From: Verrucomicrobiota bacterium
Lineage (GTDB): Bacteria; Verrucomicrobiota; Verrucomicrobiia; Opitutales; UBA953
DNA length: 64,000 nt
Assembly (NCBI GenBank): GCA_015061905.1
Contig: SUVQ01000001.1
Location: forward strand, 62,001-126,000
Reading direction: 5' to 3'
Under the pieces are notes generated by a model. That model was not told where the DNA came from, ran no database searches, and worked only from the letters and a program-made list of their open reading frames with translations. The translations under genes and the position numbers were made by a program. Shown here one piece after another: positions 43,238 through 46,503 of this stretch; position 1 is the first letter of the stretch, and each line of letters opens with the position of its first letter.

Positions 43238-43666
43238 TCAATACTTTTCGAGCTGTTCTTTGCTGACAAAGCGGCAATGAATCGGGAGCTTCGTGTCGGC
43301 AAGGCGCATGGCTTCACGCGCGGCGGACAGAGGAACACCGGAAACTTCAAAAAGCATCGTTCCCGGACGCACAACTGCGCACCAGTATTCGACGTTCCCT
43401 TTTCCGGAGCCCATTCGGACTTCAGCGGGCTTCTTCGTAACCGGCTTATGCGGGAACACACGCATCCACATTTTTCCTTTACGCTTGAGCGAGCGGGAAA
43501 TTGCAACACGAGCGGCTTCGAGCTGTGCTGCCGTCATACGGCAACGTTCCAAAGCCTGAATTCCGAATTCACCGAAAGCAAGTTGGTTACAGGAAGTCGC
43601 GTTCCCGTAAATACGCCCTTTTTGGACTTTCCGGTATTTCGTGCGAGAGGGTTGAATGTTAGGCAT
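43238..43666 (-). CDS. rplP: 50S ribosomal protein L16
   Basis: The 142-residue protein has PSRTKYRKVQKGRIYG, ARVAISRSLKRKGKMWMRV and the GSGKGNVEYW loop. It is involved in the aminoacyl-tRNA site of the large subunit. Confidence 0.95.
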   Translation of the reverse strand: MPNIQPSRTKYRKVQKGRIYGNATSCNQLAFGEFGIQALERCRMTAAQLEAARVAISRSLKRKGKMWMRVFPHKPVTKKPAEVRMGSGKGNVEYWCAVVRPGTMLFEVSGVPLSAAREAMRLADTKLPIHCRFVSKEQLEKY

Positions 43667-43694
43667 AGTATTATGTCCTTATTCTTGGTTTCAA

Positions 43695-44324
43695 TTAGAT
43701 TTCGGGCTCTTTCGTGCAAACCCAGCACTTGATCCCGAGTTTACCGTAAACGGTATGTGCTTCGGCGAACCCGTAGTCGATATTTGCACGCAGTGTGTGC
43801 AACGGCACGCGTCCGACGCGAGACGATTCGACGCGAGCGATTTCCGCACCGCCGAGACGACCGGCAACGCGAAGACGAATCCCTTCTGCGCCCGCGTTCA
43901 TCGTGCTTTGGACGGCTTTCTTCATTGCACGGCGGAAAGAAACACGGCGTTCCAACTGAAGCGCGATATTTTCCGCGACCAACTGTGCTACGAGATCCGG
44001 CTTTTTGATTTCTTGGATATCGAGAATGACTTCGCGTCCGGCGATTTTCTCAATATCTTCACGCAGTTTTTCAAGCTCTCCGCCCTTACGACCGATGACG
44101 ACACCCGGGCGAGCCGAGTAAATCTTCACGCGGATACGAGAACCGGCGCGTTCAATGAAAATTGTCGGAACTCCTGCCTGGCGGAGTTTTTCATGAAGAA
44201 ACTTACGAATCGCATAGTCGTTCTTCAAGAATTCCGGGAACGTTTTCTTATCCGCATACCAACGGGAATCCCAATTGCGGCGGACGGCAAGACGAAAGCC
44301 GATCGGATTTGTTTTTTGACCCAT
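43695..44324 (-). CDS. rpsC: 30S ribosomal protein S3
   Basis: The 209-residue protein begins MGQKTNPIGFRLAV, has the KH domain (ARPGVVIGRKGGELEKLRED) and the C-terminal S3 domain. Length is normal for a short-tailed S3. Confidence 0.95.
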   Translation of the reverse strand: MGQKTNPIGFRLAVRRNWDSRWYADKKTFPEFLKNDYAIRKFLHEKLRQAGVPTIFIERAGSRIRVKIYSARPGVVIGRKGGELEKLREDIEKIAGREVILDIQEIKKPDLVAQLVAENIALQLERRVSFRRAMKKAVQSTMNAGAEGIRLRVAGRLGGAEIARVESSRVGRVPLHTLRANIDYGFAEAHTVYGKLGIKCWVCTKEPEI

Positions 44325-44343
44325 AATCGAAATTATTCGGAGG

Positions 44344-44679
44344 TTATTGTTTATCGCTCAAAACGATGGTGATATGGCTCGTCGACTTGCGAATCGGATG
44401 AGCACTACCCTTCGCTGCAGGACGGAAACGCTTCAACACCGGACCTTGGTTAACCATTGCGGCAGAAACGACGAGATCTTTAGCGGAGAGATTGTTATTG
44501 TTTTCCGCGTTGGCAATCGCGCTATTGAGCGTCTTCAAAAGAAGACGTGCAGACTTGCGCGGGATGAAGCGGAGGAGGTCCGCCGCCTGAAGCGCGGGAA
44601 GACCTTGAATTTGTCGAGCCACGTCGCGCACCTTTTGAGGCGTCATACGGGCAAACTTAGTGATGGCTTTAACTTCCAT
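44344..44679 (-). CDS. rplV: 50S ribosomal protein L22
   Basis: The 111-residue protein begins MEVKAITKFARMTPQKVRDV and ends with the SHITIVLSDK hairpin that lines the exit tunnel. The gene upstream is not rpsS, as usual, but an unknown signal-peptide gene. Confidence 0.95.
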   Translation of the reverse strand: MEVKAITKFARMTPQKVRDVARQIQGLPALQAADLLRFIPRKSARLLLKTLNSAIANAENNNNLSAKDLVVSAAMVNQGPVLKRFRPAAKGSAHPIRKSTSHITIVLSDKQ

Positions 44680-44698
44680 TGTCCGGAATTAGCTAAAA

Positions 44699-45052
44699 TT
44701 AAATGGTTTTCAATTTGACCGTATCACCGGTCTGAATCGTTTGATTATTTTCAAGAAACGTGATTAAGGCAACTGCTCGGTTCCGCTCTGCGGAGGCAAT
44801 AACAACTTCTGCAACCGGCTCCGCGCCGCGATTAACGCGGCAACGTGCGCCCGTGCAAAAGTCGGAGTCGTATCCGGCATCAACAAGAACGACATCGACC
44901 GAACGTCCGGCAAATACGGAGATAACCGAAGCCTCATTCGTTTCGGAAACCGAAACATTGACGCTCTCGGCATTCAATCCGCCCGCGAATCCCAGGCAAA
45001 ACGCCGGGAACGCGAGAGCGGAAAGAACCGTAGCCGTGAATCCTTTAATCAT
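44699..45052 (-). CDS. Signal-peptide protein of unknown function inserted in the S10 operon
   Basis: The 117-residue protein begins with a signal peptide (MIKGFTATVLSALAFPAFCLGF) and continues with a small beta-rich domain containing TGARCRVNRG, VVIASAERNRAVALI and QTGDTVKLKTI, similar in rhythm to small beta-barrel modules. It is not a ribosomal protein. It lies between rpsS (5-base gap) and rplV (19-base gap), in frame with operon spacing, so it must be made with ribosomal proteins. The reading frame is intact, which argues that it is used. Confidence 0.75.
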   Translation of the reverse strand: MIKGFTATVLSALAFPAFCLGFAGGLNAESVNVSVSETNEASVISVFAGRSVDVVLVDAGYDSDFCTGARCRVNRGAEPVAEVVIASAERNRAVALITFLENNQTIQTGDTVKLKTI

Positions 45053-45057
45053 CGGAA

Positions 45058-45333
45058 TTAGACAGCCTTCTTGGTCGGAGCCGTATGGTGTTTGAAGGAA
45101 CGCGTCGGCGCAAATTCGCCAAGTTTATGTCCGACCATATTTTCTGTGATATAGACGGGCAAAAACTGCTTTCCGTTGTGAACGTTGAGATTAAGCCCGA
45201 CAAAGTCCGGCGTAATCGTCGAACGGCGCGACCAGGTTTTGATAGGCTTGTGATCACCGCTCTTCTGAGCAGCCAACACTTTGTCCATCAAGGACGGTTC
45301 GACGTAGTAACCTTTTTTGATTGAACGTGCCAT
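45058..45333 (-). CDS. rpsS: 30S ribosomal protein S19
   Basis: The 91-residue protein begins [19 protein letters not shown] and has [21 protein letters not shown] and [14 protein letters not shown], the S19 signature, given here in two parts. Confidence 0.95.
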
Positions 45334-45339
45334 TGTCTA

Positions 45340-46197
45340 TTAGCCCTTCTTAACTTTGCGCCCATTGCGACGAACAATAATATGAACGTTCGAGGGCTTG
45401 GATTTGATACGGGTCGGGAAGCCTTTCGCGAGCTGTCCCCACGGCGAGCTGAGATGCTGACGACCGCCGCCGCCTTTGGATTTACCCTGACCGCCGCCGT
45501 TCGGGTGGTCGACAGGATTCATCACCATACCGCGAACGCGCGGACGACGCCCGAGCCAACGATTGCGACCGGCTTTCCCCAAGGAGCGATTTTGGTGCTC
45601 GGAATTACCGACCTTTCCGACCGTTGCACGGCAATTCGCGTTCAAATAACGCTGCTCGCCGGACGGCATCTTAATGATTGCGAGATCTCCTTCAATACCG
45701 AGAAGCTGTGCAGCGTTCCCGGCGGAGCGAGCGATGCGGGCTCCCTGTCCGGGTTCCATTTCGATCGCATGGATATCCGTTGCCGGCGGAAGATAGCGCA
45801 ACTTCACGGAAATACCGGGAGTAAACTCTTCAACCGTTCCGGAAGCGGAGATAATCTGATCGCCGACATTCAAGCCGTTGGGAGCAAGAATATAAGCTTT
45901 TTCTCCGTCCGTATACTCAATCAAAGCGATGTTTGCAGAGCGGTTCGGATCGTATTCAAGAGCGAGAACCGTCGCGGGAACGTCGAGCTTAGCACGACGA
46001 AAATCAATGCGGCGATAAAGTTTCTTGTGTCCTCCGCCACGGCGACGGGAAGTGATGCGACCGTAGCAGTTACGTCCCTTAGGATTGTGGATGGATTCCA
46101 CGAGATCCTTTTCCGGACGCTTCTTGGAAAGCTCCTGCTTATTGCGGACGAGAAAACGCTGTCCGGGAGTAAGCGGGCGATTGGATGCGAGTGCCAT
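45340..46197 (-). CDS. rplB: 50S ribosomal protein L2
   Basis: The 285-residue protein has GRNCYGRITSRRRGGGHKK and the peptidyl-transferase-proximal VMNPVDHPNGGGQGKSKGG with the conserved histidine. Normal length. Confidence 0.96.
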   Translation of the reverse strand: MALASNRPLTPGQRFLVRNKQELSKKRPEKDLVESIHNPKGRNCYGRITSRRRGGGHKKLYRRIDFRRAKLDVPATVLALEYDPNRSANIALIEYTDGEKAYILAPNGLNVGDQIISASGTVEEFTPGISVKLRYLPPATDIHAIEMEPGQGARIARSAGNAAQLLGIEGDLAIIKMPSGEQRYLNANCRATVGKVGNSEHQNRSLGKAGRNRWLGRRPRVRGMVMNPVDHPNGGGQGKSKGGGGRQHLSSPWGQLAKGFPTRIKSKPSNVHIIVRRNGRKVKKG

Positions 46198-46215
46198 TTT
46201 CGGTATCCTCTACTA

Positions 46216-46503
46216 TTAAATGAGTTCGATTTTGTCGCCCTTCTTAAGGGTAACAATCGCTTTCTTAACGTCCGGAGCCTTAATGATTTCTCCGCGTTTC
46301 GTGCGGGACATCTTTTGCTTGCCCTTAGCGTTAAGAATGTTAACGCGCGTCACGGTTACCTTGAATTGAGCCTCAACGGCAGCGGCAACTTCCTTGCGAT
46401 CAGCGCAGGGATAGATTTCGAAGACATATTTATTGTCTTCCGCGAACGCAGCGGTCTTTTCAGAGACGAGCGGACGCTTGATAACACTGTATGCAGGTTT
46501 CAT
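46216..46503 (-). CDS. rplW: 50S ribosomal protein L23
   Basis: The 95-residue protein has VIKRPLVSEKTAAFAEDNKY and NILNAKGKQKMSRTKRG. It forms the docking site for signal recognition particle and trigger factor at the exit. Confidence 0.95.
   Translation of the reverse strand: MKPAYSVIKRPLVSEKTAAFAEDNKYVFEIYPCADRKEVAAAVEAQFKVTVTRVNILNAKGKQKMSRTKRGEIIKAPDVKKAIVTLKKGDKIELI

Follow-up and report, generated by a model that had tools for sequence, protein, structure and literature searches.

The S10 operon across much of the phylum Verrucomicrobiota carries an old, inherited family of genes that is tied to rplV, and the 117-residue protein encoded in the window (the whole 64,000-nucleotide stretch of DNA analysed here) belongs to the short form of this family that occurs in the window's order (Table 1). 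The best explanation of the gene, which we hold tentatively, is that it encodes an inherited periplasmic envelope protein whose supply would be coupled to the synthesis of ribosomal proteins.

The genes rpsS and rplV are among the most constant gene pairs of bacteria. An earlier note on this DNA described an intact 117-codon reading frame between them, with gaps of 5 and 19 bp, and this was borne out by the coordinates and by the Pfam identification of both neighbours; the gene takes up 354 of the 378 bases from the rpsS stop to the rplV start. No Pfam or NCBIfam model matched the 117-residue protein at E 1 or better, a search of a viral collection found no relative of it, and a literature search, mostly outside subscription journals, found no paper describing the gene. 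The same note called a non-ribosomal gene at rpsS-rplV unusual. A conserved, exported-looking gene is indeed present at this place, but it is not a local oddity: it is inherited, and its relatives lie between rpsS and rplV in at least 22 of the families sampled, as counted from the genomes' group codes. The reach of the gene across the phylum had thus been underestimated.

Table 1. Coordinates of the embedded gene, its parts and neighbours in the window, and of related loci in other genomes.
Feature	Position	Strand	Basis or remark
Embedded gene, 117 aa	44699..45052	-	ATG start, stop codon included; frame conserved, dN/dS
Predicted signal peptide, about residues 1-28 (end approximate)	44969..45052	-	Hydrophobic stretch, positive-inside pattern of the family, low-confidence region of the model
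Predicted C-terminal six-stranded barrel, about residues 38-117	44702..44941	-	AlphaFold2, block pLDDT 83-94 from residue 41; homology to long-form C-terminal domain
rpsS (S19), upstream neighbour	45058..45333	-	Pfam PF00203, E 1.2e-35
rplV (L22), downstream neighbour	44344..44679	-	Pfam PF00237, E 4.5e-37; linkage to the gene kept in other lineages
5-base gap after rpsS stop	45053..45057	-	-1 to 10 bases in sampled loci of the family
19-base gap before rplV start	44680..44698	-	4 to 22 bases in most of the family
Paralogues	L140 6877-7650; L141 7319-8910; L147 7372-8223; L142 6612-7352; L143 6127-6882; L144 6556-7332; L146 6380-7192		
Seven split loci	L042, L097, L099, L102, L104, L107, L109		
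Locus pairs of a broken operon	L096/L097 (G061); L101/L102 (G079); L103/L104 (G082); L098/L099 (G173)		

Near the window's genome, the gene is consistently present. Of the 57 genomes covered by a protein search, 44 (own included) have homologues. Among them are each of the seven other species sampled from the genus, every further member of the family except one, and members of several more families in the order. All 20 loci taken from this search (own included; the rpsS end of L010 is masked by Ns, and rpsS itself is interrupted in L012) have the gene between rpsS and rplV, and so do 29 of 29 further loci, which came from scanning named genome records and are mostly titled as Opitutae, Opitutales or Verrucomicrobia MAGs. 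The comparison of this interval with other Opitutae, as the earlier note had proposed, therefore returned the gene in all 49 loci fetched by homology. No internal stop interrupts its frame in any of the seven other species sampled from the genus or across the family, and dN/dS within the genus is about 0.1-0.6, with changes mostly at third positions. The gene is under purifying selection. It diverges faster than its neighbours: one species has S19 and L22 identical to those of the window, but 91% identity in this gene. A sequencing or assembly artefact, or a frame not conserved in relatives, had been named as what would overturn the first account, and we found the opposite in independent assemblies. 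We therefore regard an artefact or a chance reading frame as practically dismissed: independent assemblies, the conserved frame, dN/dS below 1 and the phylum-wide relatives all count against it, and nothing was found in its favour.

Some of these loci have peculiarities of their own. In L012 (G026:C39), rpsS lies at 1824-2003 and 2178-2282, split by roughly 175 bases after its first 35 codons; this genome is 71% complete, and an assembly error is possible. Two public MAG records that hold an Opitutae-type locus (L114 and L132) are titled Akkermansia muciniphila and Polynucleobacter meluiroseus; these titles look wrong, or the bins mixed. The window's genus also has two cysteines, at residues 66 and 71, five apart (FCTGARC). 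Most of the order shares the second cysteine, which is not true of the first; the genus may therefore have a disulfide of its own.

When 240 genomes of the phylum were searched with a profile, 71 gave matches, some of them to paralogues elsewhere in the genome. S19 and L22 were both located in at least 102 genomes, and among those listed, 59 have an rpsS-rplV interval of at least 350 bp, 28 have a shorter interval, and in the other 15 the genes lie far apart or on separate contigs. We fetched 80 regions and read the intervals of all except L166-L168. Every interval read above about 350 bp contains a family reading frame ending 0-97 bp before rplV (in L013 and L015 the automated reading chose an overlapping frame, and the family frame was identified separately). 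The shorter intervals, namely L072 (313 bp) and those of 9-218 bp, have no such frame.

The proteins are 108-137 residues long in the window's order, 233-290 residues in the rest of the class and 129-402 residues elsewhere. In general they start with a signal peptide or membrane anchor and finish with a C-terminal domain about 75 residues long; between the two lies a coiled-coil-like segment, whose length varies. The central part of the long forms weakly matches many coiled-coil families and is read as a coiled coil; it is absent from the 117-residue protein and from the other short forms of the order. In profile-profile comparison with hhalign, the order matched the rest of the class with E 1.2e-16 and the other classes with E 3e-15, over the C-terminal 83-85 columns, and the two long groups matched each other over 210 columns (E 1.9e-30). 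Thus, the C-terminal domain of the short forms is homologous to that of the long forms. The family as we define it here, the rpsS-rplV envelope protein family, does not require the coil, and the window protein is a short variant that shares the family's place directly upstream of rplV (19 bp before it). Across short and long forms alike, no Pfam or NCBIfam family reaches its cut-off, so members are probably annotated as hypothetical proteins in many genomes.

The earlier note had also suggested a search for homologues at other loci, and the answer depends on the genome. A search of the window's own genome found no second copy of the gene, whereas other genomes have paralogues with anchor, coil and barrel away from ribosomal genes. 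In L141 the paralogues form an adjacent pair near a dnaX-like gene; in one lineage, paralogues stand beside what we take to be dnaX and a short gene resembling ybaB. The surroundings of the paralogues that we examined gave no functional hint.

Lineages in which the operon has come apart separate the two neighbours as partners of the gene. In seven loci from five families, rpsS was not found beside rplV, and the gene lies 1-117 bp upstream of rplV. We located rpsS for five of these seven (L107 and L109 not among them), and in the five genomes concerned (G061, G079, G082, G173 and G260) it lies either on a separate contig or at a distance of more than 500 kb. On the rpsS side of the split genomes (L096, L098, L100, L101 and L103), the fetched stretch after rpsS contains no family gene. 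Since the gene is upstream of rplV and missing after rpsS, the break fell between rpsS and the gene, and the gene went with rplV. Of its two neighbours, rplV is the one to which it is tied.

Several families have a broken S10 operon, in which rpsS is separated from rplV at the insertion point of the gene. For Gammaproteobacteria and Bacilli it is reported that the genes on either side of an insertion into the rpoBC-str-S10 cluster often became disconnected later, in some lineages; the insertions there are tusDCB, bfd-bfr, nrdHEF and ilv-leu (PMC8046335). They resemble the embedded gene in being inherited non-ribosomal genes in a conserved cluster, three of them between operons and one inside the rpoBC operon (PMC8046335). 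Unlike those four, the embedded gene lies inside the S10 operon, encodes a predicted envelope protein and is found in many families of a phylum.

The gene and the ribosomal proteins diverge in parallel (Spearman 0.74; 0 of 300 permutations), as vertical inheritance would predict, and the gene is an old resident of the lineage. On an unrooted tree built from S19, L22 and S3 of 108 loci, its presence and absence, scored by interval length, require 12 changes or more. The gene is absent from one group of families (f37, f47, f49, f50, f63, f64 and f70), and other absences are scattered, notably in f14. Judging from the shared place and sequence, one gain and several losses would be the simplest reading of this unrooted tree. 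As it is missing in many lineages, the gene is not essential everywhere.

The N-terminus of the protein, MIKGFTATVLSALAFPAFCLGFAGGLNA/ES, reads from its sequence as a Sec signal peptide, and export of the 117-residue protein is predicted. In 59 of 72 family proteins, the N-terminal flank of the hydrophobic stretch is more positive than the C-terminal flank (9 tied, 4 opposite). This charge pattern fits an N-in/C-out orientation with a periplasmic C-terminus.

Modeling the rest of the protein with AlphaFold2, using 22 relatives, gave a confident domain from about residue 40 to residue 117 (block pLDDT 83-94, six strands) and an N-terminus of low confidence. The predicted fold is a six-stranded barrel. 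In a Foldseek search, FlgT ranked first and MreC was among the matches listed, none of which reached E 0.001 or better. VIA-align placed 8z5n_0, from the flagellar LPHT ring, first (Z 10.9, 83 residues, 2.3 A), with FlgT (8z5n) tied with the N-terminal barrels of F1-ATPase subunits. The modeled domain is a common small barrel, and such a match supports the fold, not a function. Alanine racemase and the F1/V-ATPases were considered as relatives and set aside, their structural matches being taken as the same small-barrel fold. Searching the PDB by sequence gave nothing significant; the best match was TsaP (3jc8, E 0.024), a LysM protein of the type IV pilus, over about 28 residues, and the LysM domain is absent from the window protein. 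The family alignment used for the sequence searches of the PDB and the own genome and for the Pfam comparison of family members had four wrong residues at the beginning of its first row (GDDS in place of GAGN); they lie outside the domain core and are not expected to alter the outcome.

Could the protein belong to a known envelope family, as a FlgT-type flagellar ring protein or an MreC whose sequence has drifted too far to be recognised? The barrel fold is common to both, and some family members give weak Pfam matches (FlgT_C, best E 0.002; MreC, E 0.0065, in one member). The long forms also share with MreC (PF04085; 7eft) the plan of membrane anchor, coil and barrel, and the window protein shares with the C-terminal domain of FlgT (PF16538; 3w1e, 8z5n) a small six-stranded barrel in an exported protein, export being predicted here. 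These Pfam scores are nonetheless below the curated cut-offs, and the window protein itself has no Pfam match to FlgT (PF16538) or MreC (PF04085). It also lacks the other domains of FlgT, and the family has one barrel domain only, unlike MreC. In its own genome, estimated to be 98% complete, no FlgI (PF02119), the flagellar P-ring gene, was detected, and a separate, clear MreC is encoded. A flagellar ring protein or MreC itself is therefore unlikely, and we consider the drifted-family explanation very improbable.

Several features of the locus bear on its expression. A search of the coding strand from 43600 to 46300 found no terminator-like site. The same segment contains four weak promoter-like sites on that strand, one of them inside the gene (44772-44744); these prove little because 1.9 (sd 1.2) were expected on both strands. 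Co-transcription with the ribosomal genes is likely, and the link to growth rate proposed in the earlier note is plausible from the tight spacing and the absence of a terminator-like site. The codon adaptation of the gene to ribosomal genes (0.687) is just below the range of the ribosomal genes themselves (0.703-0.851), with long reading frames elsewhere in the window at 0.452-0.763, and strong expression is therefore not supported.

In the explanation that we prefer, the S10 operon would have acquired a gene for an envelope protein early in the evolution of the phylum, immediately before rplV, and would have kept it there. The full-length form would combine a signal peptide or membrane anchor at the N-terminus with a coiled-coil-like stretch and the C-terminal six-stranded beta barrel, of which the window's order would retain the signal peptide and barrel. 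We infer that the barrel may act in the periplasm as a structural or adaptor module, a scaffold of the envelope, as the barrels of FlgT, TsaP and MreC do. The position in the operon would couple the supply of the protein to ribosomal-protein synthesis by co-transcription and probably also by translational coupling. This explanation draws on the constant interval, the reading frame in every long interval, the profile homology, the linkage to rplV and the correlated divergence, and also on purifying selection, the charge bias, the confident barrel model with FlgT ranked first and the lack of a terminator-like site. Against it stand the absence of the gene from many lineages, the commonness of the fold, the tie of FlgT with F1-ATPase, the lack of a Foldseek match at E 0.001, the codon adaptation slightly below that of ribosomal genes and the uninformative surroundings of the paralogues.

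Some of these same observations would suit a passive hitchhiker, that is, a dispensable envelope protein kept because rearrangements of ribosomal operons are rarely tolerated, its position having no regulatory meaning. The gene has been lost cleanly and repeatedly, leaving gaps of 9-218 bp, its codon adaptation is not at the ribosomal level, and it diverges faster than its neighbours. Its persistence beside rplV where rpsS and rplV have come apart, together with purifying selection, speaks against passive carriage, but both are also compatible with inertia. We regard such carriage as a real possibility, if a doubtful one. It is unlikely, in our judgement, that the protein is a phylum-level envelope component hard-wired into the S10 operon, with envelope growth keeping step with ribosome synthesis. 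If true, this would join envelope assembly to translation capacity through a direct genetic link, and we know of none from model bacteria. Retention before rplV across much of the phylum, even in broken operons, suggests a lasting tie between ribosome supply and the envelope, and makes the gene a lineage marker.

Secretion-monitoring leader peptides offer a precedent for a different role, in which the gene would be a cis-acting leader: translation or export of the peptide would regulate rplV and the downstream genes, and the protein would be secondary. The conserved place directly before rplV, with short gaps, would suit such a leader. So would the distribution of synonymous changes, fewer of which occur close to the 3' end in the genus of the window (p 0.01-0.02) and, marginally, in f11 (p 0.06). 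Neither the second genus group of the family nor the long forms of f23 showed such a constraint, however, and an Rfam search gave no family match for an RNA element; a general leader function is not supported by these two results. The folded, conserved domain also occurs in paralogues far from ribosomal genes, and protein length varies from 108 to 402 residues, both of which tell against a leader. We judge a leader role improbable. Within the window's genus, few synonymous changes occur in the last 14 or so codons (44699-44760 and relatives L002-L005), and this scarcity perhaps reflects an overlap with signals for the start of rplV.
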